Shown one piece after another: positions 1,775 to 28,836 of a stretch of DNA of 33,314 nucleotides. Below the pieces are notes generated by a model. That model did no database searches and was not told the DNA's origin. It was given only the letters and a program-made list of their open reading frames with translations. Every line of letters begins with the position of its first letter. Positions within the stretch are counted from its first letter, which is position 1. The translations under genes were made by a program, and so were the position numbers. Source of the stretch: an uncultured Alphaproteobacteria bacterium (GTDB lineage: Bacteria; Pseudomonadota; Alphaproteobacteria; Methylaequorales; Methylaequoraceae); NCBI GenBank assembly GCA_902526175.1, contig CABZJY010000013.1, positions 1 through 33,314 of the forward strand, given 5' to 3'.

Positions 1775-1844
1775 CAATATTACATAATTTTAAGATAAAA
1801 TAACATCAAAAAGCTTTATTACAACTAAATAGTTTCCTAAGCGA

Positions 1845-4973: not shown

Positions 4974-5006
4974 ATGAAAATGAAATTTAATATACTAATA
5001 TCCGAT

Positions 5007-5894: not shown

Positions 5895-5939
5895 AATTTA
5901 AAAATTAATACATTTATATAATTTACTACCTAACTTTAT

Positions 5940-5967
5940 TTGTACAACTTAATTTTTGTGATATTCT
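5940..5967 (+). promoter_or_regulatory. candidate promoter for the NeuB-type gene
   Basis: TTGTAC at 5940-5945 and TATTCT at 5962-5967 are separated by 16 bases, about 26 bases before the ATG at 5994. TTGTACAA (5940-5947) is a perfect 8-base palindrome, so it could also serve the divergent dioxygenase gene. AT-rich intergenic DNA gives many chance matches. Confidence 0.3.
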
Positions 5968-5993
5968 TAAATTAACCCTCCAAATAATTTAAA

Positions 5994-7004
5994 ATGAAAT
6001 ATTTCAAAATTAAAAAAAAAAAAATTGGTTTTGATCAACCTTCATTTATTATTGCCGAATTAGGTATCAATCACATGGGTAATTATAATACAGCGAGAAA
6101 AATAATTGGAGAGGCATTCAAATCTGGAGCAGACGCTGTAAAGTTTCAAATAGTGAATCCTGAAGAGTCTTATGAAAACGGGAGTGAATCATATGAAATT
6201 TTTTCAAAATATAAACTGAGATTGGAAGATTATCAAAAGCTTTTTAAAGAATTTAAGGAAAGAATTTTATTTGCAACACCTGGAGACTTTTCAAGTCTTC
6301 GATTATGCCAAAAAATTGGTATGGAGGCGTACAAAATCTCCTCAGGACTCATAACAAATACTCCTCTTGTACAAGCAATTGCAAAATTAAAAAAACCTAC
6401 ATTCATATCTAGAGGTATGGCAGATGAGAAGATCATTAAAAAAACAATTGGTATATTTAACAAGATTAATTTTTCAAAAATTGCTTTACTTCATTGCGTA
6501 TCAATTTATCCAGCAGATATTAAAGAACTTAATTTACGAAGTATCACAGAAATGAAGAGAAAATTTAAAACCTTTATTGGTTATTCTGATCATTCTAATG
6601 GAATAGATTCAATACTATCTTCCATTTCTCTAGGGGCCTGTGTAGTTGAAAAACATATTGCGCTAAATAAAAAAGATAACCCACCTGATGCAAAAGTTTC
6701 TATTGAGCCAAAAGAGTTTAAACATATGGTAAAAAAAATTAGGGAAATTGAAAAAATGCTTGGTGAAGAAAAAATTTCTGTTAGTGAAAAAGAAATCAGA
6801 CAAAAATATAAGATGCAAAGATATTGTGTTGCTAAGGTAGATTTATCTGAAAATGAAAAAATTACTTTAGAAAAAATTGTGTTTAAAAGATTAAAAAATA
6901 GTAAAAATGCTGTTGCCGCATTAAATTTTAAAAAAATAAATCATAAAAGATGTAAGACTGCAATTCTGCGGAATAAAATAGTATCCTTTAAAAATTTAGA
7001 ATAG
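5994..7004 (+). CDS. pseI: NeuB-family nonulosonic acid synthase (pseudaminate/legionaminate type)
   Basis: A 336-residue enzyme that condenses phosphoenolpyruvate with a six-carbon amino sugar to make a nine-carbon nonulosonic acid. The TIM-barrel domain (about 15-255) shows IIAELGINHMGN (Glu 21, His 27), ADAVKFQ (Lys 50, Gln 52), HCVSIYP, GYSDHSNG, EKHIAL and PPDAKVSIEP, all family hallmarks. A C-terminal SAF/antifreeze-like domain follows (about 270-336, RYCVAKVDLSENEKI...). Neighbouring pseB, pseC and pseG favour the pseudaminic route; sequence alone does not separate PseI from LegI or NeuB. It is the only plus-strand gene among minus-strand pathway genes, ends 1 base from the convergent pseG, and must have its own promoter. 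Confidence 0.85.
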   Translation: MKYFKIKKKKIGFDQPSFIIAELGINHMGNYNTARKIIGEAFKSGADAVKFQIVNPEESYENGSESYEIFSKYKLRLEDYQKLFKEFKERILFATPGDFSSLRLCQKIGMEAYKISSGLITNTPLVQAIAKLKKPTFISRGMADEKIIKKTIGIFNKINFSKIALLHCVSIYPADIKELNLRSITEMKRKFKTFIGYSDHSNGIDSILSSISLGACVVEKHIALNKKDNPPDAKVSIEPKEFKHMVKKIREIEKMLGEEKISVSEKEIRQKYKMQRYCVAKVDLSENEKITLEKIVFKRLKNSKNAVAALNFKKINHKRCKTAILRNKIVSFKNLE

Positions 7005-7005
7005 A

Positions 7006-7983
7006 TCAAGTATTTATTTCTAATAATCTGGCTATCCTTTTTATTCCCAAACCGTCAAAATACTTATTGCATTGGTGATTCATTAATTCTCTGCTATCAA
7101 AATCGTCTATTAATTTTTTTATTTGATTTATTAAAGAAATATTAAAGTTTTCTTTTACAAAAAATGTACAACCGTAATCATTTAATTTTTCTTTCAGCTT
7201 TATTTGATTTTTACTTATTGAAAATGTTAGTGAAGGAATACCAATCGTTAATCTTTCTAATAAGGCTAACCCTCCTGACCCAATAGCAAAATCTATTTTA
7301 CTTAATTTTTTTATAGCATGAAAATCGTCAATGTTTAAATTAATATTGAGTTTAGAGACCCTACAAAAATCTTTTATTACTTTAAAATCTCTAAACAAAG
7401 AACTAATAAAAACTTCGAATCTAAACCGATTAAAATAAATGTAATTTTTATCCAATAATTTTAATATTTTTAAAGTACACGACTTACTATCCGATAAACC
7501 AAAACTTACAAGAATCTTTTTTACTTTTTTTTTTACTTTGTATTGCTCAGAGATTTTTATATATAAAGGATCAACCATTGAATATTTAAGTTCTGTTATT
7601 AACCTATATTTTGATTTTGTTGTATCTTGTAATGTAATATTATAAAAAATATCAGCAAATTTACTTTTTGTTATTTGCTCATTTATTATCATAATTTTTT
7701 TAGAATAGGATTTTAGAGATTTTATTTCTTTTTCAGTAATCAAATAATCATCAACTATTGTCAAGTCAAAATTATAGGTCTTATCCTTTGTATTATAAAT
7801 TTTAATAGAATTACTTCCTTTGCTTTTTAGAATTTTTTTTACTAAATTTGGGTCTGAATTTTGATGAGATAAAAATACATGGTTTTTTTTTCCAAAAAAC
7901 TTAGCTAGGGATATACATCTCATCAGATGACCTCCGCCTGTTTTGAAGGAGCAACATGTTCTGATTAATATTTTTTTTTTCAT
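7006..7983 (-). CDS. pseG: PseG-like nucleotide-sugar hydrolase
   Basis: A 325-residue GT-B-like protein. It starts with ILIRTCCSFKTGGGHLMRC, the G-x-GH-x2-R/RC loop of PseG, whose His (about 19 here) is catalytic in the family. The second half has ILVSFGLSDS, FHAIKKLSKIDFAIGSGGLALLERLTIGIPS and ISKNQ, the UDP-binding end. PseG removes UDP from UDP-2,4-diacetamido-2,4,6-trideoxy-altrose, freeing the sugar for the synthase. It is fourth in the pseB-pseC-AKR run, 18 bases after the reductase gene, and its tail meets the convergent synthase gene. Confidence 0.85.
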   Translation of the reverse strand: MKKKILIRTCCSFKTGGGHLMRCISLAKFFGKKNHVFLSHQNSDPNLVKKILKSKGSNSIKIYNTKDKTYNFDLTIVDDYLITEKEIKSLKSYSKKIMIINEQITKSKFADIFYNITLQDTTKSKYRLITELKYSMVDPLYIKISEQYKVKKKVKKILVSFGLSDSKSCTLKILKLLDKNYIYFNRFRFEVFISSLFRDFKVIKDFCRVSKLNINLNIDDFHAIKKLSKIDFAIGSGGLALLERLTIGIPSLTFSISKNQIKLKEKLNDYGCTFFVKENFNISLINQIKKLIDDFDSRELMNHQCNKYFDGLGIKRIARLLEINT

Positions 7984-8001
7984 TAAATTTTTTACTATTA
8001 T

Positions 8002-8847
8002 TTACAAGTTTATATTTCTAAAATTTAAATCTAAACTATCTAATTTAAAATACGACTTATGAATCATTTGAAGCTGATCCAGATTATGTACGCCAAAAAT
8101 AGCTACATCAATTTCTTTTGTTTGTTTGATGAACCAAATTGCTGCTTCAAATAAAGAGTATTTTTTCTTGTTTAAAACAATTAGTAAATTTTCTATTTTC
8201 TTTTTTTTTTCTTCTTCGATATCCAAATTTAGTGCATTGTCATTTTCAGCTAAAATTCCTTGATCAAAAATCGAACGTGCATGAATTTCAATTTTTTTCT
8301 TTCTAAATACTTTTAAAATATTTTTTTGTAAAAAAGACTGATTAAGAATATTTAAAGGTACTTGGACAATATCTAAATTTATTTCTTTTAAAATTTTTTC
8401 AGCAATTTCGGGTTCATAACTTGAAAATCCAATTTTTTTTACAGTTCCATTCATTTTAAGTTCTAGTAGGTGATTATATAATTCTTCAAAACCAGGTTTA
8501 AGAATATCGTTTTCACGATGAATTAATAATGCGTATATGCTCTTTCTTTTTAAAGATTCTAATGATTCTTGAATTTTATGTTTAAAATTTACTAGATCAC
8601 TTTTTGTTACCTCTTTACCAGAAACTTTGATAGTTTTTGTTATAATTTTAAATTTATTTTGTGGCGGTGAAAGCTCACCTATTTTTCTCTCACTTAATCC
8701 ATAAAGAAAAGCTGTATCAATATAATCTATATTTTTTTCATGAAGAAAATATAATATTTTTTTTATTTCTTTTTTATTTGGTATTTCTAGATTATTAGAA
8801 ATTCCGTATTTTTGACCAAATTGAACAGTTCCAATCCCTAATTTCAT
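8002..8847 (-). CDS. aldo/keto reductase family protein
   Basis: A 281-residue NAD(P)H-dependent oxidoreductase fold. The catalytic tetrad of the family is visible: Asp and Tyr in YIDTAFLYGLSE (about 44 and 49), Lys in KIITKT (about 71) and His in ALLIHRE (about 110). VKKIGFSSYEPE and the late IDVAIFGVHNLDQL fit the rest of the barrel. Such reductases are not part of the textbook six-enzyme pseudaminate route, so it may set a stereocentre or reduce a keto group on a variant. It sits 6 bases after pseC and 18 before pseG. Family sure; substrate unknown. Confidence 0.85.
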   Translation of the reverse strand: MKLGIGTVQFGQKYGISNNLEIPNKKEIKKILYFLHEKNIDYIDTAFLYGLSERKIGELSPPQNKFKIITKTIKVSGKEVTKSDLVNFKHKIQESLESLKRKSIYALLIHRENDILKPGFEELYNHLLELKMNGTVKKIGFSSYEPEIAEKILKEINLDIVQVPLNILNQSFLQKNILKVFRKKKIEIHARSIFDQGILAENDNALNLDIEEEKKKKIENLLIVLNKKKYSLFEAAIWFIKQTKEIDVAIFGVHNLDQLQMIHKSYFKLDSLDLNFRNINL

Positions 8848-8853
8848 TTACTT

Positions 8854-10053
8854 TTAAGTTTTTTTTATTAGATTCTTAACTTGCTTCACAACATAGTCAA
8901 CATCATTAAAAGTTAATTGAGGGAATAAAGGTAATGATAAACACTTTTTATAATACTCTTCCGACCCTTCAAGTTTTTTTGAAAATCCATATATTTTTTG
9001 CAAATGTAAAGGAGGGTAATGAACTTGAACTCCAATATTTCTATTCTTTAACTGGTTGATAATATGAGCTCTTGTTAAACCTATCTTTTCAAAATCAATT
9101 AATACAACATACAAATGGTAGGAAGTATTACAAAACTTAAATTTTTTTACTGGTTTCAAAAAATCTGATAAATCCGAAAATTTTTTGTCATACCTTTGCA
9201 CAATTTTTTTTCTTTTAATTATAAATTTTTCTATTTTATTCAATTGGTTGGTACCTAATGCACAATTTAGATCACTTGCTCTAAAATTCAGACCAATCGA
9301 TTGAATCTCATAATAATTAGGATTTAAAATATTATTTTTATCATACGCGCCTTTACTTAAAAAAAACTTTGGATCTCTTTGGATGCCATTATTTCTAAGA
9401 AGAATAATTTTTTCATATAGTGTTTTATCATTAGTGGTGATAGCCCCACCTTCTCCCATTGTTATATTTTTTACTGGATGAAATGAAAAAGTAGTCATTT
9501 TACTATAATCACATGAGCCAATTTTTGACATTTTTTGTCTTTTCATTATCTTTGTGCCAAGTGCATGAGAAGCATCTTCAATTATGCTTATTCCATATTT
9601 ATTACAGACTTTTGATATTTCCGGTAGATCAACAGATTGACCGTTTAGATGAACCGGTAAAAATAACCCTTTTTTGATTTTATTCTCAATAATGGTATCT
9701 TCTAAAATATTTTTGGTAACTAAACCAGATGTAGATTCAACATCACAAAATATAATTTTAAAATTCAACATTTTAGCTACATTTGCAGCAGCCGCAAAAG
9801 TTATCGAAGGTATTATGATTTTTGTTCCTTTTGGAAGATTTAAAGATAGGCAAGCCAAGTAAAGAGCTACTGAACCATTAGAACAAACAACAGCGTATTT
9901 TGAACCTACATAATTTGATAATTTTTTCTCAAATTTTTTTACTTCAGGACCAGTTGTTAGAAAATCACTTTTCAGTACCTTTTCAATACACTTTAGGTCA
10001 GTATGATCAATATATTGCTTGCTATAATGCAGAAATTCTTTTTTTTTTAACAC
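8854..10053 (-). CDS. pseC: PseC-like UDP-4-keto-sugar aminotransferase (DegT/DnrJ/EryC1)
   Basis: A 399-residue PLP enzyme of the DegT/DnrJ/EryC1/StrS family. DFLTTGPEVKKFE starts the fold. VCSNGSVALYLACLSL, IPSITFAAAANVA, IIEDASHALG and the Schiff-base lysine in FSFHPVKNITMGEGGA (Lys about 195) are all present. It should transfer an amino group from glutamate to C4 of the UDP-4-keto-altrosamine made by PseB. The start is GTG at 10053; no in-frame ATG fits. It lies 2 bases after the pseB stop and 6 before the reductase, as in a tight operon. Strong family call; PseC rather than another sugar aminotransferase rests on adjacency to pseB and pseG. Confidence 0.88.
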   Translation of the reverse strand: MLKKKEFLHYSKQYIDHTDLKCIEKVLKSDFLTTGPEVKKFEKKLSNYVGSKYAVVCSNGSVALYLACLSLNLPKGTKIIIPSITFAAAANVAKMLNFKIIFCDVESTSGLVTKNILEDTIIENKIKKGLFLPVHLNGQSVDLPEISKVCNKYGISIIEDASHALGTKIMKRQKMSKIGSCDYSKMTTFSFHPVKNITMGEGGAITTNDKTLYEKIILLRNNGIQRDPKFFLSKGAYDKNNILNPNYYEIQSIGLNFRASDLNCALGTNQLNKIEKFIIKRKKIVQRYDKKFSDLSDFLKPVKKFKFCNTSYHLYVVLIDFEKIGLTRAHIINQLKNRNIGVQVHYPPLHLQKIYGFSKKLEGSEEYYKKCLSLPLFPQLTFNDVDYVVKQVKNLIKKT

Positions 10054-10055
10054 AT

Positions 10056-11084
10056 CTAAATATTATTATTTAATAAATTAAGTAGCTGATTTTCATTCAA
10101 CCATACTTCATTGCTATCACTTGAATACTTGAAGTTATCCTTAAGATCAAAATTTACAACATTTTTTTTAAAAATTTTTTTTTTATTAAAATGCAATTTT
10201 GGAGGTAAGATAATATATCTATCTATCAATTCAATTGTATACCTAGCGTCATCTTTTGAAATCATTGTTTCATGTAATTTCTCTCCTGGTCTGATACCTA
10301 TAATTTCAAATGGTATATTAGGCGCAATGATTTTTGCTACCTCAGTTACTTTCATACTCGGCAACTTAGGAACGAAAATTTCTCCTCCACTCATATTACC
10401 AAGACAAGAAATTACAAATTCAACACCTTGATTAATATTTACCCAGAATCTTGTCATCCTTTTGTCTGTGATTGGGATAGTCTTTGATTTTTTTTCATAC
10501 AAATTTTTAAATAATGGAATTACACTTCCTCTGGAATTTACAACATTACCATATCTACAAATAGAAAATATGGTTCCATCTTTTCCAGAATAATTATTTG
10601 CAGCGATAAAAATCTTATCAGATGCTAATTTTGAAGCTCCATAAATATTTAAAGGATTAGATGCTTTATCAGTTGACAAAGCTATTACCCTATTAACTCC
10701 GCAAAAGATACTAGCTTCAACTATATTTTGAGCTCCCACAACATTTGTTTTTATACATTCAAATGGATTATACTCCGCAAGAGGCACATGTTTCAAAGCA
10801 GCAGTATGAATTACAAAATCAACATCTTTAAATGCTATTTTAAGTCTTTGAACGTCCCTTACATCACCAAGAAAAAATCGCAATTTTTCACTACCTTGAG
10901 ACCTGAATTTTTTCTCCATTTCATACTGTTTAAATTCATCTCTTGATAGGATAATTATTTTTTTAGGTTCAAAGTATTTCAGGAGTTTTAAAACGAAGGC
11001 CTGTCCAAAAGTTCCTGTACCACCAGTAATCAGTATTACTTTATTTTTGAAGCTTATATTAGACTTAAAATATTTATTTTTCAT
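10056..11084 (-). CDS. pseB: UDP-N-acetylglucosamine 4,6-dehydratase (inverting)
   Basis: A 342-residue short-chain dehydrogenase/reductase of the short FlaA1/PseB type. The NAD(P)-binding loop is ILITGGTGTFGQAF (about 17-30); catalytic residues lie in ALSTDKASNPLNIYGASK (Asp 139, Lys 140, Tyr 148, Lys 152). AALKHVPLAEYNPFECIKTN and MTRFWV are typical of PseB. The enzyme dehydrates UDP-GlcNAc and inverts C5, the committed step to pseudaminic acid. It is first of the minus-strand pseB-pseC-AKR-pseG run. A GAGAAG-like ribosome site lies just before the ATG, and the promoter must lie in the gene-poor stretch above 11084. Confidence 0.9.
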   Translation of the reverse strand: MKNKYFKSNISFKNKVILITGGTGTFGQAFVLKLLKYFEPKKIIILSRDEFKQYEMEKKFRSQGSEKLRFFLGDVRDVQRLKIAFKDVDFVIHTAALKHVPLAEYNPFECIKTNVVGAQNIVEASIFCGVNRVIALSTDKASNPLNIYGASKLASDKIFIAANNYSGKDGTIFSICRYGNVVNSRGSVIPLFKNLYEKKSKTIPITDKRMTRFWVNINQGVEFVISCLGNMSGGEIFVPKLPSMKVTEVAKIIAPNIPFEIIGIRPGEKLHETMISKDDARYTIELIDRYIILPPKLHFNKKKIFKKNVVNFDLKDNFKYSSDSNEVWLNENQLLNLLNNNI

Positions 11085-12046: not shown

Positions 12047-12940
12047 ATGAATAAAAATATGAAAAATTATATAGCGATTACCGGAGCTTCAGGATATGTA
12101 GGAATTAATCTTTTAAAATATTGTATTGAAAAAAAAATAAATGTTAAAGCCTTTTGCAGAGATGTGACAAAATTAAATCATCTGAAATCTAAATATTTAG
12201 ATATATATAGCTATCAGTTAAACAAACCAATGGAAAATCTGAGAGGAGTGTATGCAATAATTCACCTTGCTCACCAAAGATTTTCAGGAGCAAGAAGAAA
12301 TCAGTTAGATGATATAAATTTGATTGGTACTACACAAATTTTGAAAGAAGTGAAAAAAAGAAATATAAAAAAAGTTATATATCTTTCAAGTATACTAGCT
12401 AATAAAGAAACAATATCTGATTATGGTAAAAGTAAATTATGTTGTGAAAACTTATTTAAAAAATCAAATTTTACGGTCATCAAAGCAAGTTTTATTTTTG
12501 GAGGTCAACCAAGTGGATTTTACCGCGATCTAGTCGATAACTTATCCACAAAAAAAGTTATGCCAATTGTTTTTCCAAGTGTTAAAATTCAACCGATTCA
12601 TATTGAAGATTTATGTATATACATGGTCAAAAAATTACAAAAACGTTCTACAGACAAAAAGCCGATAATATTCCAACATACAAAAAAAATTTCAATTAAA
12701 GACTTCTTTTGTTTCTTAGCTGCATTTTTATTTAATCGTAAAATTATTTTCTTCAATTTGCCTTCAAAACTATTGCTCAAACTTTTTTATTTTCTAGGAT
12801 ATTTTAATGGTTTTTTTAATAGAATTTATGAGAGAATTTCTGGACTTTACAGCCTCGAAATAATATCTAAAGAAAATGTTATTGAAATAAACGAAAGTGA
12901 TTTGAGAAAAACAAATATATTTTTAAGTAAATTTAAATGA
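12047..12940 (+). CDS. NAD-dependent epimerase/dehydratase (extended SDR)
   Basis: A 297-residue Rossmann-fold protein. YIAITGASGYVGINLL near the N terminus is the NAD(P)-binding loop, AIIHLAHQ the second conserved strand, and VIYLSSILAN followed by DYGKSKLCCE gives the Ser and YxxxK catalytic residues. IQPIHIEDLC is the usual late SDR motif. Start is ATG 12047; ATG 12059 (just before KNYIAITGAS) is a possible alternative. Its stop overlaps the start of the GMC oxidoreductase gene (ATGA), so the two are coupled and may work in sequence on one sugar. Product specificity cannot be read from the sequence. Confidence 0.82.
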   Translation: MNKNMKNYIAITGASGYVGINLLKYCIEKKINVKAFCRDVTKLNHLKSKYLDIYSYQLNKPMENLRGVYAIIHLAHQRFSGARRNQLDDINLIGTTQILKEVKKRNIKKVIYLSSILANKETISDYGKSKLCCENLFKKSNFTVIKASFIFGGQPSGFYRDLVDNLSTKKVMPIVFPSVKIQPIHIEDLCIYMVKKLQKRSTDKKPIIFQHTKKISIKDFFCFLAAFLFNRKIIFFNLPSKLLLKLFYFLGYFNGFFNRIYERISGLYSLEIISKENVIEINESDLRKTNIFLSKFK

Positions 12941-14454
12941 AAATTTTTGACGTAATAATAATTGGAAGTGGGCCAGCTGGTGTTTCAGCTGCATGGCCAT
13001 TAGTTAAATCAAAAAAAAGTGTACTCATGATAGATGTTGGATTTGATAAAGATAATAAAAAAGAAAATAATATAAATAAAGAAAACACAAGTCCTAAAAT
13101 TCTATCAAAAGAATTATCATATGCTTTTAGAGATTTTAAAAAATATTATAAATTAAAAACTCAAAATTTTTCAGCACATGGATCATTAGCTAAAGGGGGG
13201 TTGTCGAATGCATGGTCAGCTTTAACCAGTTCATTTTCGGATGATGAATTTGCTGATTTTCCATTTACAAGAAAAACCTTATTACCTCATTATATATCAG
13301 TTGGGAAACGAATTGGAGTGAGTGGATCAAAGGAAAGTAATTTATCGTCATGGATTGGTAATGAGTATGTTACACAATCCAGTTTACCAATTCATCCACT
13401 AACTCAGATATTGTTAGATAATTATAATTCTAATAGATTAGTTAATCAAAATCATAAATTTATACTTGGTAAACATAATCAAGCTATACTTAGTGAACCC
13501 CTAAATAATAGAGTCCCTTTCAATCAAAAAAATATGGTTGGTTTTTGGGATTCAAGTAATTCGGTTTATAATTCTGGGCATGAAATTGGAAATTTAAAAA
13601 AGAATAAAAACTTTAAATATATTACAGGCTTTTTTGTGGAGGAGATAATTGACGTTAAAGAAAAATGTGTAATTGAGGCGAATGAAACAACAACAAAGAA
13701 AAATCAAAAATTCTACTCAAAACTCATTGTTCTAGCTGCCGGTACAATAGGATCTACAAAACTTGCTCTTAAGGCAAATAAGTGTTTTGATAAATATTTA
13801 AAAATTCAAAATACTCCGATGTTTCCATTTGTACTTTTGTTTCCATTACAACTTAATAGACAAAAATCATTTAATTATTTTAGTTTTTGGCACCTATCTT
13901 ATTATTTACAAATAAAAAATCTAAAACCCCATCATAAAATATTTGGTCATATAGCGCCTACAGACGGTATTTCATCTATTGAATTGATAAATAGAATAAA
14001 ACTTCCCAGACCAATAAATAGTATTTTAGGAAATTTTTTTTGGCCTAAAATGTTACTTGGTACATGTGTATTTCCAGGAATATACTCAGATAACAAAATT
14101 AAATTATCTAAAAATGATCAGCTTAATATTTTAGGAAATGTTTCCTGTGATTTAGCAATTCTTATAAAACAATCAAAGTTTCTTTTGACAAAAATTTTTA
14201 AAAGATTGGGTGCTTTTTTATTAGTAAAAAATTTAAATATTGTCCCTGGGGAAGACGTTCACTATGCGTGTACTCTTCCAATGAAAACAAATCCCAAATT
14301 TATGCAAACTGACCAAAATGGTCTTTTGAATGGTAAAGGAAATATCTACATCGTTGATGGATCAGTGTTGTCATCCTTACCAGCAAAAAGTCATACTTTT
14401 ACGATAATGGCTAATTCTGAAAGAATCAGTAAGAAGATAGTGCAACGTCTATAA
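12937..14454 (+). CDS. GMC-type FAD-dependent oxidoreductase
   Basis: A 505-residue flavoprotein. The FAD-binding Rossmann loop is IIIGSGPAGVSAAW (about 7-20); ALKAGG-like HGSLAKGGLSNAW (about 81-93) and VLAAGTIGSTKLAL (about 265-278) follow. The C-terminal GMC block has VHYACTLPM (His about 442) and IYIVDGSVLSSLPAKSHTFTIMAN (split motif, His about 486), the usual active-site histidines. GMC enzymes oxidise alcohols or sugars. It overlaps the epimerase gene by 4 bases, implying that both act on the same surface sugar, and overlaps the convergent broken methyltransferase by 6 bases. No signal peptide; probably cytoplasmic. Confidence 0.82.
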   Translation: MKIFDVIIIGSGPAGVSAAWPLVKSKKSVLMIDVGFDKDNKKENNINKENTSPKILSKELSYAFRDFKKYYKLKTQNFSAHGSLAKGGLSNAWSALTSSFSDDEFADFPFTRKTLLPHYISVGKRIGVSGSKESNLSSWIGNEYVTQSSLPIHPLTQILLDNYNSNRLVNQNHKFILGKHNQAILSEPLNNRVPFNQKNMVGFWDSSNSVYNSGHEIGNLKKNKNFKYITGFFVEEIIDVKEKCVIEANETTTKKNQKFYSKLIVLAAGTIGSTKLALKANKCFDKYLKIQNTPMFPFVLLFPLQLNRQKSFNYFSFWHLSYYLQIKNLKPHHKIFGHIAPTDGISSIELINRIKLPRPINSILGNFFWPKMLLGTCVFPGIYSDNKIKLSKNDQLNILGNVSCDLAILIKQSKFLLTKIFKRLGAFLLVKNLNIVPGEDVHYACTLPMKTNPKFMQTDQNGLLNGKGNIYIVDGSVLSSLPAKSHTFTIMANSERISKKIVQRL

Positions 14455-15232
14455 AACTTTAACCATTAGAGCATGTCCATTTAGATTATGAAATACAATT
14501 CTATCTTTTTTTACATACTCATCGTCAACCAACCTACTTATTCCATTTGTTAGTAATCCTCCATAGTCATCAAATATAACAACACCTCCTATAACCATTC
14601 TACCCCATACCCAGTTAAAAACATCTTTTCCAGATTTATATACATCAACATCAATATGACAAAATTTAAATTTTAAATTTTCTATTTCTTTTCCTGTATC
14701 ATCAGGAAATACTCCGTTTAAAATTATAGTATTGTCAAGTTCCATTTTTCTGGTTAAATTTTTTATTATGTCAACAGATGTATCAGCATGTTCACCGCCA
14801 GTGTAAGTACCATCTTTAGGACTTGTTTTTACTAAACCTTTAAATGTATCTGCAATAAAAACCTTATTCTTAAGGCCCTCTATTTTACACTTTTTTTGCA
14901 ATTAAACAAGCACTTCCTCCTCTCCATGCACCAACTTCAAGTATATGACCATTCTTATCTTTTACTTGTTCAACAATTTTCCATAATTCGTATAATTTAT
15001 AAATATCAAGAAATGTATTGTATTTTACTGACTTATAGGTCTGATTAAAGATATTGTCGTTAATCCATGGGCTATAAAAATTCTCAGGAATTTGCATAGA
15101 ATATTTTTTCTTGTCAGGTTTCACAGAAAAAAACAGTTTTAAACTTTCAAACAAAATTCTTTCTACAAATTTTAAAATACTTTTTGCAAAAAGAAGTTTT
15201 TTTATATTTACATTTTTTGTATTTGAAGCCAT
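14449..15232 (-). pseudogene. TylF/macrocin-like O-methyltransferase split by one-base frameshift
   Basis: Two adjoining frames make one protein of about 260 residues, the normal TylF length. The first (15232 down) ends ILEVGAWRGGSACLIAKKV then stops. The second, out of phase, continues KKCKIEGLKNKVFIADTFKGL ... FKFCHIDVDVYKSGKDVF ... GGVVIFDDYGG. GAWRGGS is the SAM loop, IADTFKGL and CHIDVDVY are TylF hallmarks, and the aspartates that bind metal are present. The break is at a run of seven As (bases 14891-14897 on the complement); six As would restore the frame exactly. It may be a real pseudogene, a sequencing error, or slippage that still yields some product. It starts 95 bases from the divergent glycosyltransferase. 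Confidence 0.8.
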
Positions 15233-15327: not shown

Positions 15328-16050
15328 ATGCCCATCAAACCAAGATATAGTTTAATAATTCCGTGTTACAATGAAGAAGGTAATATAGAAAAACTTGTTC
15401 AAAAATGTAAGAAAATATTCAAAAAGAATATTTTTGAAGTTATTTTAGTAGAAAATGGCTCCACAGATAATTCTTTAGATATTTTGAAAAAAAATCTTAA
15501 AGGTATTGAAAACTTTAAACTTTTAAGAGTTAAAAAAAATAAAGGAATTGGTTATGGGATAGTTCAAGGGCTAAAAAGTTCCAATGGAGAAATCATTGGG
15601 TGGACTCATGGTGATCTACAGACTGATCCAAGCGATGTAAAAAAAGCATTTGATCTAGCAAAAAACATTCATGGTGATTTTCTAATCAAAGGAAAAAGAT
15701 TACCTAAAAACCGAAGTGCTCTTGAAATTTTCTTTACTCTAGGATTAACTTTTTTTGAAAGTATTTTATTTTTAAAACTTTTCTGGGAAATAAATGCTCA
15801 ACCAAATGTTTTTACAAAACAATTTTTTACTAAATGGAAGAATCCTCCTTTAGATTATAATATTGATCTCTACTGTTACTATAAGGCTTTACAAAATAGA
15901 GTTCATATAAAAAGATTTGACGTGGAATTTAAAAAAAGATTTTCTGGTAAGTCAAAATGGAATAAAAATATTTTTGTTAGATTTATCTTTATATTAAAAA
16001 CAATTATTTATAGTCTTAAACTAAAATTTATGAAAAATGCTAATAATTAA
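15328..16050 (+). CDS. family 2 glycosyltransferase (dolichol-phosphate-sugar synthase-like)
   Basis: A 240-residue GT-A enzyme. YSLIIPCYNEEGNI opens the fold, VILVENGSTDNS binds the nucleotide, and GWTHGDLQTDP (about 91-101) supplies the acidic metal ligands in the place of the usual D-x-D. KNKGIGYGIVQGL is typical of the DPM1/polyprenyl-phosphate branch. A hydrophobic stretch near the C terminus (FVRFIFILKTIIYSL) may touch the membrane; there is no multi-span tail. It likely moves an activated sugar to a lipid carrier or glycan. The end overlaps the following GDPD-like gene by 14 bases. Confidence 0.85.
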   Translation: MPIKPRYSLIIPCYNEEGNIEKLVQKCKKIFKKNIFEVILVENGSTDNSLDILKKNLKGIENFKLLRVKKNKGIGYGIVQGLKSSNGEIIGWTHGDLQTDPSDVKKAFDLAKNIHGDFLIKGKRLPKNRSALEIFFTLGLTFFESILFLKLFWEINAQPNVFTKQFFTKWKNPPLDYNIDLYCYYKALQNRVHIKRFDVEFKKRFSGKSKWNKNIFVRFIFILKTIIYSLKLKFMKNANN

Positions 16051-16627
16051 ACATAGACTAAATACAATTAAGAAACTTGAAAACCTTAGGCACGACTATG
16101 GTGCTGAAATTGATATTCGATCCTATAATCGTGAAATAATAATTAGTCACGATCCTTTCAAAAAAGGAGAAAAGCTGAAAAAATGGCTTAAAAAATTTAA
16201 ACACAAATTCATTATATTTAATATTAAGGAAGAGGGTTTAGAGTTTCAGCTCCAAAAACTTTTAAAAAAATTTAAAATCAAAGAATTTTTTCTTCTAGAT
16301 CAATCATTCCCATTTTATATAAAAAATATAAAAACTTTTGGAAAAAACTCTTCTATAAGAGTTTCGGAATTTGAAGGAATTGAACGAGCAATTAAACTCA
16401 GAAAATTTACGAATTGGTTATGGGTTGATCATTTTTCAAAATTTCCTTTGTCTAAAGAAAATATTAAAATATTAAATTCTTTAAAATTTAAATTTTGTAT
16501 TGTGTCACCTGAATTGGTTAGTGAGATTGATTTATTAAAAAAAGTTTCGATTATTAAGAATATTTTTAGAAGTGCTAAAGTAAAAATTGATGCTGTTTGT
16601 ACAAAAAAACCTAGTTATTGGATTTAG
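16037..16627 (+). CDS. small GDPD-like conserved protein of polysaccharide loci
   Basis: A 196-residue protein resembling the front half of glycerophosphodiester phosphodiesterase barrels. His 6 and Arg 7 (IIKHRLN), Glu 24 and Asp 26 (GAEIDIR) and His 38 (ISHDPF) line up with GDPD active-site residues. It then has FIIFNIKEEGLE, EFFLLDQSFPFY and RVSEFEGIE. It is shorter than usual GDPDs and ends without the later barrel strands I would expect, so it may be a trimmed family or have another substrate. It overlaps the glycosyltransferase by 14 bases (likely coupled) and the convergent nucleotidyltransferase by 17. Phosphodiester cleavage during glycan assembly is inference. Confidence 0.65.
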   Translation: MLIIKHRLNTIKKLENLRHDYGAEIDIRSYNREIIISHDPFKKGEKLKKWLKKFKHKFIIFNIKEEGLEFQLQKLLKKFKIKEFFLLDQSFPFYIKNIKTFGKNSSIRVSEFEGIERAIKLRKFTNWLWVDHFSKFPLSKENIKILNSLKFKFCIVSPELVSEIDLLKKVSIIKNIFRSAKVKIDAVCTKKPSYWI

Positions 16628-18119
16628 AATTAAAATAATTTTTTTTAAAAATAATATTCCAAAACTTAAATTCATTTAGCTCATCAATCGTCCCCAAATG
16701 GAAGTAGTGATCAAGCTTTATTGCCTTTATACTGATATTGTTTTCCAATAATAGTTGGATAAAGTGATCTACAACAATTTCTTGACCTTGAATCAAATTA
16801 ATTTTCTTAATTTTACTAAAAATTTCACCATTCTTAAACCAAAAAAATCCTGCCAATCCAAGATCATCTTTTCTAATCCTTTTTTTAATATTTATTGAAC
16901 TAATGGTACCACGTTTAAAACTTACATAGGTATGAGAATCCTTTTGGCTTTTTTGAATTAATGATGGATCAAAAACAAAAATTATTACATCTACACCTGT
17001 CTCTTCTGTAAGCATTTTAAATGTTTTAAGATTAAAAAAACCAAAGGCATCACAAGATAATAAAAAAAAATTTTTTCTCTTTTCTAAATGTTTAATTGAT
17101 TTTTTTAATGTTTCAATTTGAGAATTAGTTTGTTTGTTTAGTATTACTTTTTCATAATTTTTAAAATACTTGCTGTTCTCTTTGAATATTCTTAAGGTTG
17201 AAATTACTACATTTCTTTTATTATTTGGAAAAAAATCAGATACAAATTTAAACATTGGTTTATAATTTATTTTTATAAATGCTTTATTACCTAAATTTAA
17301 TTTTTTAATCCTCTTACTTTTCCCAGCCATGCAAACTATAAGAGTATTTTTAAAATCATTGATAAATTTAAATTTTCTAATTTTTAGTATTTTTTTATAC
17401 CAGCTTAGATAATCTTCTAGATAATCTGGAATTCCCCAATGAATAAAATATTCTAAACGATATATTACAATTTTCTTTTTTTCATTTAAAAGCTCATTAA
17501 AAATTAAAGATGGAAAATATTCATTTGATACAGTAATTTTTTTTTTCATTAAGCTCTCAATTGATCCAATCATGTCATATCCATTTTTTATATAAAATAC
17601 TCCAACAGATAAATCTTCCTCAATCCAATTTGTTGTAAAGGATTCTTTTTCTTTTATTTTAATAAGTTGATTTTTTTTAGTACGACAAAATGCTGAATAG
17701 TTATTTATAAGCTTATGTGGGTGAAACCCTTTATTAGTAAATACTATACCATCATTAAACAAATATTTTTTGATTTGACTAAAATTCCATGACCAATCAA
17801 TATCACAATATGAGATAAAGAAGCTTTCATTAAGCGGCAAATGATTCTTACAACACCAAATAGTGTAGGCAGGACCTAATTTATGTGGAGAAATATATAA
17901 AATATTTATTTTTTTTTTTTTTAAATTGTTTATATGCTCACTTTTTAAATATTCTTTACAGGTAATTACCCAAATTTTTACTTCTTTTGGAAATTTATTT
18001 GTTACATACTCATACATATTATGTTGATTAATTTTAATAAACGGTTTAAAAGTCTCATATTTTGCTTCTTTAAACCTCGAACCTTTCCCAGCCATTGGAA
18101 TTAATAAATTTAAATTCAT
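16611..18119 (-). CDS. tandem sugar-phosphate nucleotidyltransferase (two NTP_transferase domains)
   Basis: About 502 residues with two related halves. The first opens LNLLIPMAGKGSRFKEA...FKPFIKI, has FISYCDIDW (metal Asp), and ends WGIPDYLEDYLSW. The second opens NTLIVCMAGKSKRIKKL...NKAFIKI, has LLSCDAFGFF and ends HLGTIDELNEFKFW. Both keep the MAGK-R nucleotide loop and an acidic C-D pair, so both may be active; the second loop is less canonical (GKSKR for GKGSR). I prefer ATG 18119, one base after the stop of the large fusion gene, over a GTG at 18131. The tight coupling suggests it activates the product of the fusion enzyme as an NDP derivative. Which nucleotide and sugar is unknown. Confidence 0.78.
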   Translation of the reverse strand: MNLNLLIPMAGKGSRFKEAKYETFKPFIKINQHNMYEYVTNKFPKEVKIWVITCKEYLKSEHINNLKKKKINILYISPHKLGPAYTIWCCKNHLPLNESFFISYCDIDWSWNFSQIKKYLFNDGIVFTNKGFHPHKLINNYSAFCRTKKNQLIKIKEKESFTTNWIEEDLSVGVFYIKNGYDMIGSIESLMKKKITVSNEYFPSLIFNELLNEKKKIVIYRLEYFIHWGIPDYLEDYLSWYKKILKIRKFKFINDFKNTLIVCMAGKSKRIKKLNLGNKAFIKINYKPMFKFVSDFFPNNKRNVVISTLRIFKENSKYFKNYEKVILNKQTNSQIETLKKSIKHLEKRKNFFLLSCDAFGFFNLKTFKMLTEETGVDVIIFVFDPSLIQKSQKDSHTYVSFKRGTISSINIKKRIRKDDLGLAGFFWFKNGEIFSKIKKINLIQGQEIVVDHFIQLLLENNISIKAIKLDHYFHLGTIDELNEFKFWNIIFKKNYFNSKSNN

Positions 18120-18120
18120 T

Positions 18121-21100
18121 TTATTTGCCACATATCTTATTAATTCTTCGTACTTTTTCTAAAATTCCTTTCACAGAAGAACTTTTGACAATTGACCATC
18201 CTGACAAAATATTTGCTCCTGCATCTATACACATGTTTATATTATCTTCGGTCAGACCTCCATCAACTTCTACGATGATATTTCTATTCATACTCTCAAA
18301 ATATGACTTTATGGAATTTATTTTTGAAATTATTTTATTATCAAATATCTGTCCTCCATAACCAACCACTACTCCCATAATTACAACCCATTCGATTTTA
18401 TTTTCTATTAATAATTTAATTAAACTTTCGTCAATACTTCTATAAGTCTCAATAATTATTCCAGGTTGAGCATTATATTTTTTTATCATGTTAATACCTG
18501 AAACTAGTTGACTATTATCCTCAAATGATCTTTCATGCAACGCAATTTTATCACATCCTGCTTGAATATATTCTTCAATATAAGATTTTCTATTTGTCTT
18601 CAACCTGTGCGGTGATTCAACCATTAGATGACAATGAATATTTAATTTTTTGAATTTTTTTCTAAGGTATTCAACTTTTTTAATAGCATTAATTTTCCTA
18701 GTAATGAACTTTCCGTCACCCACATCAATATGGAAATTAAAAATACCTTCTTGATATATAGATTTTACAACATTTTTATAAAAATCATTGAAAGGTACCT
18801 CAATCATTGAAGCAGAAAAGTCTAATCCTAATTTATTTTTTTTTGATTTATTGATAACTTTTTTTTTTAATCTTTTAAATATCTCATCAACAATTTCTTT
18901 GGCCTGTCTTTTCGTATACTTGTAAGGTCTATATTTAAAATAAGAAATATCATTATGAGAAAGCTTTGGTGAATTAATATTTTTCTGTATTGAACTACAG
19001 TGATTTTCTAAAGCAGAAATAATTTTATTCCTTTCAATTTTCTCTAGTTTTTTTAACTTAGGATATATAAGGTGTAAGGCTTTTTTTATTTCTTTTTTAG
19101 ATTTTAATAAAGTTTCATAAAGATCCGCGGGTAAAGATTTTACTAGGGTATCTAAAAAGTCTCCAGCAACATTAACCTTATGACAACCACTTGTTGATCG
19201 CTTTAAATAATCTGAATGTGTTTTAGTTGTTCCGTGTAAAACTGCAGATATAAAGTTATATCTTTGTATTTTTTTTTTCCATTTTTCAGCTAATTCTACT
19301 TTTGGTATACTTATATCATTTCCATGATGGGTGGTACCAAGGTTACCTATAAACAACATAGGTCTTTTTAACAATGAATATATTCTTTTCTCATCAATTT
19401 TCTTTCTATACACATCTGCAAATATTTTAAATTGTTCGGGAGAAGGTAATAGAGCTTTAGTCTTATTTTCTAAATAATTTAGTTCACCTGCACAAATCTC
19501 TTTGTCAAAAATATAATGTTTCTTTTCTGGAACCTTATCTATTAAAGATAATGCATAATCAATAACAGGATCAAATGCTTTTTTATATGATTCATCATCC
19601 TCTTTTTTAATTTTAAATTTCTTTGATCCATCAATAACATAATGAGTTACTAATCCACTATTAATCGAACTTAAAACAAATCTTCCAGCTCTTCCAGATG
19701 GTTTGTCATTTTCGTAATTTATATGATCAAGTCCAATTCCATAAAGTATTGATGTTATCCCTGTATCTAAAAAAAAATCTCTTGCTGATCGTGTGGCAGC
19801 AGAAACAAAATCTAGGACTCCATTTTTGGGCATCAGATAACCCTGAATATTACTTCCGTTATAATTTTCGCTCTGACCTATGGCATTTAATGAAGCTTGT
19901 AATACTATTGGTGTTTTATTTTTAAACGAGCTTGATAAAAAAGCATAACAATCTAGCGAAGTACCTTTGATATCATATATATTTGAAGCTAAAATAGCTG
20001 AGTTATCGCCTCGAATATTTGTCCATAAATAAATTTCGGCAAGTATACTTGGTTGCAATTCCAATATTTCTGAATAATTCACTAATTTATTATCTTTTAC
20101 TTTGATATCCTCCCAATACTTAGAAGTATTAAGTTTAAGATTAGGAAAAGTTTCATCAATTAATTTACTTACTTTTTTCCTTAAAAGTCTATTATGACTT
20201 AAAAGCATCTTTTGAATTTGATTTTTTATTTTCTTAAAATTTTCAGATTGCATATTTCTTTTGCAATATAACTTTTCATCAAGATATACAAAATCACTAC
20301 AATTTTTTTCAACAAATTTTTTTACATATTCTCTCTCATTTTCACAAATTTTGTCATAAGATTTAGAACCTTTTTTATCAAGTGTCTGACTTTGAAATGA
20401 AGTATCCCAATAAAAACAGAATTGTTTAAATTTTTTCTTTAAAATTGATTTTGGAAGTCTGCATGCAATCAAATAATTACCAATATTTATACAATCTATA
20501 CCTACTTTAACTAAAATAGTTTGGAAGAAATATAGTTCCTTAAATGTTGCAAATCTTCTTATCCAAATACCAAAATTATTTATCAAATCATTTATACACG
20601 ACACAGAGGAAACATTTTCTTCCTCATGATCAGTCAGGATTACATTATACTTATTATCTTTTAAAAAAGATGGAATCAAATAATGGGTAGGAGTAAATAC
20701 ATTAATTTTGCTAGTTTTCTGAAATTTGTGATTATCGTAAACTAATTTTATAGGCATAGTCTGATAATTAATTTCAGCTCCTAATTCTCTATCTATTTTA
20801 ATTTTACTTGACCCCCCATCCCAAACCAGTCTGAAATTAATTGAATTATTTTTAACTTCCATTAATAACTGAACTTGTTTTTCGGTTTTTTTGAATTCAA
20901 TATTTACACCCAAGGTTACTGGAAGTTTTCTTTTATAGATATTATGAATAGCATTTGTATGAATAACCTCAAATTGTATACCTTTCTTTTTATTTATTTT
21001 GTTTAGGTTATTAATAATTTGTTTTGCATAAGCAGTTAGATCCTCACGGATATGATCAATGCTTATAGTCAGATATTCACATATTTTTTTATCCCAATCC

Positions 21101-21948
21101 ATTAGTTCATTGATACATTTAATTAATACATTTCTAGAAACATTACTTTGTAATGAGCAAGAAAAAATACATTTCATAATATCATGAAGTTTTAATCCAA
21201 TTTTTGTTTGTCCTTTAACTTTATATTTTTTTATCCAAGACAGTAAATAGTCATGGTTTTTAATTATTGGATTTAAGTGATCAGTATTATCAACTACTAT
21301 ATCAGAACCAAAGGAAAAATTACTCAGGTGTTTTCTGAATGATGGTAAGTCAATTCTATTAAAATAATCCTCAACATCATTTGATTTTCTATAGTCTTTT
21401 ACTCTATTTTTTTTTCTATTGATCAAAACTTCACATTCGCCTAAAAGCATAATATTAAAATCTATATATCTAGATAATCTTGTTTCGGATGTATAATGAC
21501 CTTCTAAAATAATTATAGCTTTTGGATCAAATTTAAATTTACTTTTTCCAATTGTTCTTCCTTTATCTTCCCTAGAGTATAAATTTTTTAAAGAAATAGT
21601 TTTTCTTTTCTTTAAATATTCAGCATTTCTTATCTCTTTTAAAAAATCCTCTACCATATGCAGTCTCATATGAAGGGCATTTTCATATTCCATTATTGAT
21701 TTCGTATTATTTATTTCTTCAAGGTCTAATAATCTTTGTTTTCTTGAAATAAGAGCCCAATCTAATCTGTATATGAAACAACTTTTACCATTTTTTTCAA
21801 TTTCATTTTTTAGGTTATCAGCTAAAATCGTCTTGCCTGATGCTGTGGGTCCATCTATCCCAATTATTAAATTACTCGACTGTCGTTCTTTTAATTGTAT
21901 TTGTATAAAATTCTTATATATCTTTTTTGCAAAGGAATTTTCAATCAT
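18121..21948 (-). CDS. 1275-residue multidomain enzyme: kinase-like, unknown, class II aldolase-like, RPE-like
   Basis: One uninterrupted frame holds four parts. Residues about 25-240 are a uridine-kinase-like P-loop domain (IGIDGPTASGKT, IIILEGHY). Residues about 245-620 are not recognised. Residues about 625-1010 resemble class II (zinc) fructose/tagatose-bisphosphate aldolases: ILASNIYDIKG, IVLQASLNAIGQ, GIGLDHINYE, FIGNLGTTHHGN, SAVLHGTTKTH and GCHKVNVAGDF keep likely metal-binding histidines. Residues about 1038-1275 match ribulose-phosphate 3-epimerase: FSASMIEVP, FHIDVGDGKF, HCHLMVESP, GVVVGYGGQIF, VEVDGGLTEDN. No membrane segment; cytoplasmic. It starts 20 bases after the membrane-protein gene and leads directly into the tandem nucleotidyltransferase. 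Inference: it builds and phosphorylates an unusual sugar or polyol. Domain calls good except the second; overall reaction unknown. Confidence 0.8.
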   Translation of the reverse strand: MIENSFAKKIYKNFIQIQLKERQSSNLIIGIDGPTASGKTILADNLKNEIEKNGKSCFIYRLDWALISRKQRLLDLEEINNTKSIMEYENALHMRLHMVEDFLKEIRNAEYLKKRKTISLKNLYSREDKGRTIGKSKFKFDPKAIIILEGHYTSETRLSRYIDFNIMLLGECEVLINRKKNRVKDYRKSNDVEDYFNRIDLPSFRKHLSNFSFGSDIVVDNTDHLNPIIKNHDYLLSWIKKYKVKGQTKIGLKLHDIMKCIFSCSLQSNVSRNVLIKCINELMDWDKKICEYLTISIDHIREDLTAYAKQIINNLNKINKKKGIQFEVIHTNAIHNIYKRKLPVTLGVNIEFKKTEKQVQLLMEVKNNSINFRLVWDGGSSKIKIDRELGAEINYQTMPIKLVYDNHKFQKTSKINVFTPTHYLIPSFLKDNKYNVILTDHEEENVSSVSCINDLINNFGIWIRRFATFKELYFFQTILVKVGIDCINIGNYLIACRLPKSILKKKFKQFCFYWDTSFQSQTLDKKGSKSYDKICENEREYVKKFVEKNCSDFVYLDEKLYCKRNMQSENFKKIKNQIQKMLLSHNRLLRKKVSKLIDETFPNLKLNTSKYWEDIKVKDNKLVNYSEILELQPSILAEIYLWTNIRGDNSAILASNIYDIKGTSLDCYAFLSSSFKNKTPIVLQASLNAIGQSENYNGSNIQGYLMPKNGVLDFVSAATRSARDFFLDTGITSILYGIGLDHINYENDKPSGRAGRFVLSSINSGLVTHYVIDGSKKFKIKKEDDESYKKAFDPVIDYALSLIDKVPEKKHYIFDKEICAGELNYLENKTKALLPSPEQFKIFADVYRKKIDEKRIYSLLKRPMLFIGNLGTTHHGNDISIPKVELAEKWKKKIQRYNFISAVLHGTTKTHSDYLKRSTSGCHKVNVAGDFLDTLVKSLPADLYETLLKSKKEIKKALHLIYPKLKKLEKIERNKIISALENHCSSIQKNINSPKLSHNDISYFKYRPYKYTKRQAKEIVDEIFKRLKKKVINKSKKNKLGLDFSASMIEVPFNDFYKNVVKSIYQEGIFNFHIDVGDGKFITRKINAIKKVEYLRKKFKKLNIHCHLMVESPHRLKTNRKSYIEEYIQAGCDKIALHERSFEDNSQLVSGINMIKKYNAQPGIIIETYRSIDESLIKLLIENKIEWVVIMGVVVGYGGQIFDNKIISKINSIKSYFESMNRNIIVEVDGGLTEDNINMCIDAGANILSGWSIVKSSSVKGILEKVRRINKICGK

Positions 21949-21968: not shown

Positions 21969-23036
21969 TTAATCCGAAATTTTCTCATAACTAAAAACAA
22001 ATAGGATTGTAATACTTGGTACAATCAAAAGCAATGAAAAGACATTTGTTAAATTTGTTCCAAAAATTGCAATCATAAAATAAAGAAAACTTATTGTTAT
22101 TAACTCAAAAAATTTTTCATTAGAGTTTTTTTTTTGAATTATAAAAAATAATACAATTAAAAAGATTAATAAAAATAATAATAAAAAAATAATTTCTGTT
22201 GTAGAAGTTTCATTTTTTATGAATTTCTCATCAATTGGGAAATATGTAGAAAATGAGTACAAGTTTTGATTTTGGATCAAGTCAAAATTTACCGTCAATA
22301 GGCTCAACACAGCAAATAAAGGCAAAAAATATGAATATAATTTTCTAAAATTAAAAATGATGTAAACAAAACTTAACGCTATGCCCGATTCTCTATTAAT
22401 TACCGCAAAAAATAATGGTATTAAAAACAAAAAAAAGTTTGATTTTAAAGAAAAATAGATACCCATGGAGATATAAAACATCTCTGGAAGAGTAAAAATT
22501 GATTGGTAACCAGTACAAAATATTAAAAAAGTAAAGAAACTAAAAAAAAATCCACATAATAATAATTTTTTTTGACTATATTTTTTGCTTATTTGAGATA
22601 TTGTCAAAAATATAAAAAAAAACGAAAAGAAACAATATGTTGTGTTAAGCAATGTATAAAATGTTAATGGTTTTTCAGGGAAAAATAAAAAAATTTTTTT
22701 AAAAACTTTTGCTTGCAAGTCTCTATATAGCCATCGTAATTTATGTCTACCATGACCTCCTTCAAAACCATCTAATTCCCTTTGTGAACTTAAAGACTCA
22801 GAGTTGTCAAAAATATGTACATCATAAAATAGTTGATTGAAATCTATTTTTTCGAATTTTGTTGAAGATTTATAATCTTGATTAATTCTAATATTGTCAT
22901 AATTCAAAATTGTTGTTATGTGATTAAAGAAAAAAAAAATAGATAAGAAGAAAAAAAAGATAAATAATAAGTTTATGTAATTGTTAGATTTTATAAACTT
23001 ATAAAAGTCTAGCTCTTTAGATCCGTTTTTCTTCAT
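21969..23036 (-). CDS. multispanning membrane protein, possible GT-C-like glycosyltransferase
   Basis: A 355-residue, very Phe/Ile-rich protein that I do not recognise. It has about eight or nine likely membrane helices (near 20-44, 122-147, 156-178, 185-212, 218-250, 280-301, 309-326, 330-349). After the first helix is a polar loop of about 75 residues with DGFEGGHGRHKLRWLYRDLQ. VINRESG near 213 recalls the R-E-x-G/T seen in some membrane glycosyltransferases and polymerases. It lies between the methyltransferase and the multidomain enzyme on the same strand, so a role in moving or polymerising the glycan is plausible but only from context. Confidence 0.6.
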   Translation of the reverse strand: MKKNGSKELDFYKFIKSNNYINLLFIFFFFLSIFFFFNHITTILNYDNIRINQDYKSSTKFEKIDFNQLFYDVHIFDNSESLSSQRELDGFEGGHGRHKLRWLYRDLQAKVFKKIFLFFPEKPLTFYTLLNTTYCFFSFFFIFLTISQISKKYSQKKLLLCGFFFSFFTFLIFCTGYQSIFTLPEMFYISMGIYFSLKSNFFLFLIPLFFAVINRESGIALSFVYIIFNFRKLYSYFLPLFAVLSLLTVNFDLIQNQNLYSFSTYFPIDEKFIKNETSTTEIIFLLLFLLIFLIVLFFIIQKKNSNEKFFELITISFLYFMIAIFGTNLTNVFSLLLIVPSITILFVFSYEKISD

Positions 23037-23927: not shown

Positions 23928-24004
<77 letters not shown>

Positions 24005-24012
24005 TCAATTAC

Positions 24013-24156
24013 ACTGTGTTTTTAGGGCCTGGCAGCGACCTACTCTCCCGCACCTTAAGATGAAGTACCATCGGCGCTGAGGGTTTTCACGGCCGAGTTC
24101 GGAATGGAATCGGGTGTTCTCCCCTCGCCATAACCACCAGACCATAAAAACACAGT
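24013..24156 (-). other. 5S rRNA flanking inverted repeat (processing stem)
   Basis: Arms ACTGTGTTTTT at 24013-24023 and AAAAACACAGT at 24146-24156 are perfect 11-base complements just outside 5S rRNA. They would extend the 5S terminal helix in the precursor and mark an RNase cleavage site. Confidence 0.75.
24026..24143 (-). rRNA. rrf: 5S ribosomal RNA
   Basis: About 118 bases. The 5' end GGTCTGGTGG pairs with the 3' CCAGGCC; the centre has CCGAACTCGG and GGGAGAGTAGG as expected. Ends are placed by helix I pairing and could be off by a few bases. Confidence 0.95.
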
Positions 24157-24160
24157 TAAG

Positions 24161-26956
<2,796 letters not shown>

Positions 26957-27084
26957 TCATGTAAAAAAAATTATACGGATGTTTGTATAAAGTAAACAAA
27001 CAACATTTAATTAATTTTAGTTAAATAACTTTTAAATATTTACGATTTCAAAAAACAAAACTTATCGGGTAAACTTTCAAGGGT

Positions 27085-27160
27085 TGGTGGAGGCAGACGG
27101 GATCGAACCGACGACCTGTTGCTTGCAAAGCAACCGCTCTCCCAACTGAGCTATGCCCCC
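27085..27160 (-). tRNA. tRNA-Ala (UGC)
   Basis: A 76-base cloverleaf in the 16S-23S spacer: acceptor GGGGGCA/TGCCTCC with encoded ACCA, anticodon loop TTTGCAA giving UGC. Confidence 0.95.
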
Positions 27161-27172
27161 ATTAGTAGAAAA

Positions 27173-27249
<77 letters not shown>

Positions 27250-27331
27250 GGTGGAAAGTTTACAAAATTAAGGGATATGTAGGTGGTGACTTCTATTCGT
27301 GAATTTTGAAATAATCCAAAATTTCTCTTAG

Positions 27332-28836
<1,505 letters not shown>

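Follow-up and report, generated by a model that had tools for sequence, protein, structure and literature searches.

A four-part fusion protein with kinase-, aldolase- and epimerase-type domains among glycan genes of an uncultured alphaproteobacterium

Introduction

Enzymes of the class II fructose-bisphosphate aldolase (FBA) type act on D-xylulose 1-phosphate and FucA acts on D-ribulose 1-phosphate, and both yield dihydroxyacetone phosphate (DHAP) and glycolaldehyde (PMC6443609). In the non-carboxylating pentose bisphosphate pathway of haloarchaea, a HAD-type ribulose 1,5-bisphosphate (RuBP) phosphatase and a FucA-type aldolase take RuBP via ribulose 1-phosphate to DHAP and glycolaldehyde (PMC9700705). 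The surface polysaccharides of some bacteria, marine ones among them, contain D-xylulose (PMC8707391).

In this study, we analysed a window of 33,314 nucleotides (the whole stretch of DNA examined here) from an uncultured marine alphaproteobacterium. One of its genes joins a PRK/uridine-kinase-type P-loop kinase domain, a middle part, a class II FBA-type domain and a ribulose-phosphate 3-epimerase (RPE)-type domain, in this order (Table 1). No characterised homologue of the fusion was found in the PDB, NCBIfam or the open-licence literature searched, and literature searches on the fusion or on xylulose gene clusters gave no direct result.

Table 1. Location of the fusion gene, its parts and neighbouring genes in the window
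Feature	Position	Strand	Basis or remark
Four-part fusion gene	18121-21948	minus	open frame, 1275 aa, ATG start
PRK/uridine-kinase-type P-loop kinase domain, residues 1-235	21244..21948	minus	PF00485 and conserved motifs
Middle part, residues 236-628 (~390 residues)	20065..21243	minus	no profile match
Class II FBA-type aldolase domain, residues 629-1036	18841..20064	minus	PF01116 in homologue, hhalign, catalytic residues
RPE-type epimerase domain with altered pocket, residues 1037-1275	18124..18840	minus	PF00834
355-aa protein	21969..23036	minus	20 bases upstream of fusion; 46% identical relative in L039; no Pfam match
Tandem nucleotidyltransferase	16611..18131	minus	PF12804, two stretches; likely ATG 18119
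GDPD-like 196-aa protein	16037..16627	plus	motifs HRxNT, ExD, HD, KEEGLE
Family 2 glycosyltransferase (GT2)	15328..16050	plus	PF00535, E 9.5e-23
TylF-type methyltransferase, split over two overlapping frames	14449..15232	minus	frames match two parts of one intact L039 gene (257 aa)
SDR and GMC-type FAD oxidoreductase genes	12047..14454	plus	Pfam; same pair in L039, 52-65% identical

Results and Discussion

Architecture and recurrence of the fusion

In the window protein, Pfam placed the PRK/uridine kinase family at residues 28-206, F_bP_aldolase at 871-949 and Ribul_P_3_epim at 1056-1248. NCBIfam also recognises the kinase and RPE parts, and the FBA piece is recognised by Pfam only. A sequence-only reading of the window had described a single frame with four parts; this is confirmed, with Pfam and profile support for three domains, and the boundaries that it gave were right.

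The genome search for the same domain order, which that reading had suggested, located the architecture in three other genomes. A full-length fusion in G001, of the same family, is 57% identical (L004), and a C-terminal 836-residue piece in G004, also of this family, is cut by the contig end and is 72% identical (L001/L005). The fusion in G422, which belongs to another class, is 36% identical (L036/L038). Within the order, the fusion is present in 3 of 32 genomes. No further fusion was found in samples of 385 genomes of the class, 120 relatives of G422, 258 genomes of the class of G432 and 48 of that of G422, nor in a 399-genome sample of the phylum, where G432 gave a weak kinase-only match; these samples overlap, and an empty result at this sensitivity does not prove absence. 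Scans of viral contigs found no relative.

Because the same architecture occurs in two more genomes of the family and in one of another class, the fusion gene is real and not an assembly accident. Codon third positions are the least conserved in each fusion domain, and together with the homologues in three other genomes this puts the fusion far beyond chance. Near its end, the fusion of G422 carries a TAG in frame at the Trp position of an SGW motif (L038:13654-13656), with homologous sequence continuing behind it; this is either a nonsense change or an assembly error.

Kinase domain and middle part

PF00485 matches the kinase domain above its cut-off of 22 (25.3 bits, E 1.6e-5). The Walker A segment GPTASGKT of the P-loop and the segment IILEGHY are also conserved in L004. 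Compared with the PRK/uridine kinase family, the fusion has these motifs but lies far below the uridine-kinase equivalog cut-off (TIGR00235, 32.6 against 220.3 bits).

The middle part, called unrecognised before and given as 370 residues, matches nothing in Pfam or NCBIfam, and its PDB profile match is at chance level only. It is 50-72% identical between members of the family, and the G422 copy shares 28%, again with third codon positions least conserved. The mean pLDDT in AlphaFold2 was 39 for the middle part and 33 for the aldolase domain. TTM1, a weak match to the kinase part, carries a CYTH domain, which suggested such a domain as a candidate for the middle part. This candidate was rejected, as neither a CYTH match nor the ExExK motif was seen.

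Class II aldolase-type domain

The PF01116 match of the window protein (20.9 bits, E 2.9e-4) is under the cut-off of 25.5, which the G422 homologue exceeds (32.5 bits, E 8.7e-8). We aligned a profile of the four fusion homologues by hhalign with a profile of FbaA, KbaY, GatY and four further FBAs. The score was 33.9 over 254 columns, against 27.0 for the best of 100 column shuffles, with fusion-side profiles that rest on four sequences. Eight residues, Asp741, His742, Asp773, Ser775, His874, His905, Lys924 and Asn926, are invariant in E. coli KbaY, GatY and FbaA and in all four fusions, and correspond to Asp82, His83, Asp104, Ser106, His180, His208, Lys228 and Asn230 of KbaY. Among them, Asp741, His742, His874 and His905 align with the catalytic Asp and the metal-ligating His residues. 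The class II aldolase-like domain with likely metal-binding histidines that had been noted is thus borne out by these residues and by a profile score above the shuffles.

The domain shares the whole-domain alignment and the Asp/His metal site with FbaA, KbaY and GatY, but it has long inserts and reads GTTHH instead of the GTAHG of KbaY, so that a second His replaces the Gly adjoining the metal His. A GatZ/KbaZ identity, considered because of a motif resemblance, was rejected, with an hhalign score of 18.5 (E 0.16) within the shuffle range. A PDB profile search with the aldolase part gave chance-level matches only, and no match to another class II FBA was found in the window genome.

Epimerase-type domain

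The C-terminal domain matches PF00834 strongly (100.4 bits, E 1.2e-28, cut-off 21.1). Its score with the rpe equivalog TIGR01163 is below the cut-off (105.2 against 212.6 bits), and we class it as a member of the RPE family without calling it an orthologous Rpe. A second RPE match in the window genome is located at C4:74059-74793. The metal and acid-base residues His1073, Asp1075, His1107 and Asp1229 are present in all four fusions wherever the sequence covers them, as in ordinary RPE.

The pocket motifs differ from those of ordinary RPE. We compared the four fusion domains with 27 RPE sequences from the searched genomes (L025 begins at MDG). All 27 have MDG, which is GDG or CDG in the fusions, and PGFGGQ or PGYGGQ, which is VGYGGQ, IGYGGQ or IGFGGQ in the fusions with loss of the proline. 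Where the 27 sequences have (A/S)G(S/T/A), the fusions have SGW, with the stop codon at this place in G422. The complete RPE-like domain described earlier is therefore present, but its pocket is not that of an ordinary RPE. Because the metal and acid-base residues are kept while the MDG, PGFGGQ and vaGs motifs are altered, our own reading is that the mechanism is probably retained and the substrate has probably changed.

Gene neighbourhood

The fusion gene had been placed between a membrane protein and a tandem nucleotidyltransferase. The nucleotidyltransferase is indeed downstream, and its likely ATG falls one base after the fusion stop; the upstream neighbour is the 355-aa protein. In L039, L001 and L038, the fusion is likewise followed by a nucleotidyltransferase relative, so that the pair is kept in four genomes of two classes. 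The GDPD-like and GT2 genes are convergent to the nucleotidyltransferase in the window and are followed by the TylF, GMC oxidoreductase and SDR genes. Both are present in all three fusion genomes where the contig continues, and a GT2 relative occurs at every fusion or core locus except truncated L001, whose contig ends within the GDPD-like gene. The neighbourhood in G001 has the same gene set as the window, and that of G422 reads HAD, TylF, fusion, nucleotidyltransferase, GT2 and GDPD-like in line. The surroundings of the fusion gene in the window gave no HAD phosphatase.

The GDPD-like protein is 39-66% identical to five relatives with invariant motif residues, and its plasmid relatives are annotated as PI-PLC/GDPD family, but it gave no Pfam GDPD match despite the conserved GDPD-type motifs.

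Positions 1001-11084 of the window hold a nonulosonic-acid-like set with NeuB family, CTP_transf_3, DegT aminotransferase, Polysacc_synt_2, aldo/keto reductase, class III aminotransferase and two PhyH genes. An rRNA operon (16S, tRNA-Ile, tRNA-Ala, 23S, 5S) and a tRNA-Met lie beside the glycan island at 23928-28834.

Related clusters with separate genes

A plasmid search with the GDPD-like and nucleotidyltransferase proteins led to A. brasilense p5, E. coli p5-S1-CAM-01-A and Hirschia pHbal01, and a genome search led to G212, G184 and G053. In the three plasmids, G212 and G184, the core of nucleotidyltransferase, GT2 and GDPD-like genes is accompanied by a PRK-family kinase, as at the fusion loci, but the aldolase is of the FucA type (PF00596). 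No FBA-like or RPE match was found in the stretches examined of these five clusters (tblastn, 1e-4). All of them except G184, which gave neither match, also contain GtrA and a HAD phosphatase. A. lipoferum, Rhizobium and Scandinavium have more distant sets of GDPD-like and nucleotidyltransferase genes.

Unlike in the fusion, a GT87-like part is found on the kinase in the separate-gene clusters; in A. brasilense it forms the N-terminal half (Pfam E 9e-4, under cut-off). At L041:9576-11693, L042:9456-11438 and L043:12587-14686, one gene encodes both a GT87-like part and a PRK-family kinase. The closest model to the HAD of A. brasilense is ribulose-1,5-bisphosphate 5-phosphatase (181.8 bits, E 1.5e-53, under the equivalog cut-off of 330), and the aldolase of this cluster matches ribulose-1-phosphate aldolase weakly. 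Both proteins resemble the HAD and ribulose 1-phosphate aldolase of the haloarchaeal pathway, but that pathway serves nucleoside degradation with separate enzymes, and the available part of the report describes no sugar activation or transfer (PMC9700705).

G053 is different: an FGGY kinase gene, an ASRT-domain gene and a relative of rhamnose isomerase take the place beside the core, between GT2 and nucleotidyltransferase (L058:3660-6701), and the sugar may therefore vary between clusters. Other bacteria have the core with unfused genes and an aldolase that is not homologous, which makes the pathway of the fusion interpretable.

Proposed pathway and alternatives

There is good support for a role in surface glycosylation from the conserved linkage to the nucleotidyltransferase, GT2 and GDPD-like genes, from GtrA and the GT87-like part in related clusters, and from the adjoining nonulosonic-acid-like set; the earlier suggestion of use on the cell surface agrees with this. 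We propose, with a probability of roughly 0.4, that the fusion combines several enzymes to produce a ketose phosphate for this purpose, and that this is most likely a pentulose phosphate. The pentulose is suggested by analogy and by gene replacement, from the FucA-type aldolase in related clusters and the RuBP-phosphatase-like HAD of A. brasilense. The presence of D-xylulose in bacterial surface polysaccharides also speaks for it (PMC8707391). The FBA-type domain would join DHAP to a short aldehyde, giving D-xylulose 1-phosphate if this is glycolaldehyde, and the RPE-type domain would invert C3. The kinase may add or relocate a phosphate, like phosphoribulokinase on ribulose 5-phosphate. The tandem nucleotidyltransferase would then form an NDP derivative, GT2 would transfer the sugar to a lipid carrier for delivery to the outside by membrane proteins of the GtrA and GT-C types, and the GDPD-like protein may hydrolyse or recycle a phosphodiester. 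We infer every reaction, the order of the steps, the pentulose and the carrier. Since FBA takes D-xylulose 1-phosphate and FucA D-ribulose 1-phosphate, an FBA with a C3 epimerase would be stereochemically equivalent to FucA, and reaching the FucA configuration in this way would fit the two kinds of cluster.

Several observations count against the pentulose scheme. Ordinary RPE uses ketose 5-phosphates, and we know of no RPE reaction that inverts C3 of a 1-phosphate. The failure to find a HAD gene beside the window gene, the change to GTTHH and the neighbours in G053 also speak against it. In addition, the middle part could alter the chemistry altogether. The description as a one-protein assembly line claims more than the data show, as the middle part matches nothing, the RPE pocket is not the ordinary one and the activities are predictions from sequence.

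It is quite possible, although we do not favour it, that the fusion has the same surface-glycan role but yields a different ketose or polyol phosphate (of tetrulose, hexulose or heptulose type), with a different aldehyde acceptor and phosphate position. The chemistry of the domains points to an aldol step of the DHAP type and C3 epimerisation and leaves the chain length undefined, the loss of the MDG Met and of the PGFGGQ proline points to a non-standard substrate, and there is a match, well under the cut-off, to the allulose-6-phosphate epimerase model PRK09722. The relatives of ribulose-phosphate enzymes in the A. brasilense cluster argue for the pentulose instead. Class II aldolase folds include retro-aldol epimerases, and the aldolase-type domain might open and reclose a sugar phosphate so that it and the RPE-type domain remodel C3 and C4 of one precursor. 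The retained metal and catalytic residues with an altered neighbour of the metal His are consistent with this, but the closest measurable family is FBA and the GatZ/KbaZ-type score lies within the shuffles, and we consider it unlikely.

A kinase, an aldolase and an epimerase are also typical catabolic parts, with DHAP as a product, and the fusion could be a catabolic or salvage enzyme that lies in the glycan island by chance. Across classes, the fusion stays linked to the genes for the nucleotidyltransferase, GT2 and the GDPD-like protein, and nonulosonic-acid-like genes adjoin it in the window; both make this improbable. A chimeric contig or a decayed gene might be suspected from the draft assemblies of the window and its homologues and from the TAG in G422; this is already contradicted by the independent occurrences, and with 1275 open codons and the third-position pattern in each domain it has hardly any chance of being right.

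Biological implications

Ketoses such as xylulose are rare components of bacterial surface glycans (PMC8707391). Term searches in two papers on xylulose-containing glycans returned no genes for making activated xylulose. It may be, although this is less likely than not, that the core is fed by interchangeable makers of sugar phosphates, with FBA and C3 epimerase replacing FucA and the middle part as a new fold or activity, in an undescribed route to nucleotide-activated ketoses for surface glycans. One core with variable sugar-phosphate makers would provide candidate genes in Azospirillum brasilense and Hirschia baltica. The middle part is conserved among the fusions, and no relative of it was found in Pfam, NCBIfam or the PDB. 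The type of aldolase present in a cluster may predict the stereochemistry of its product.
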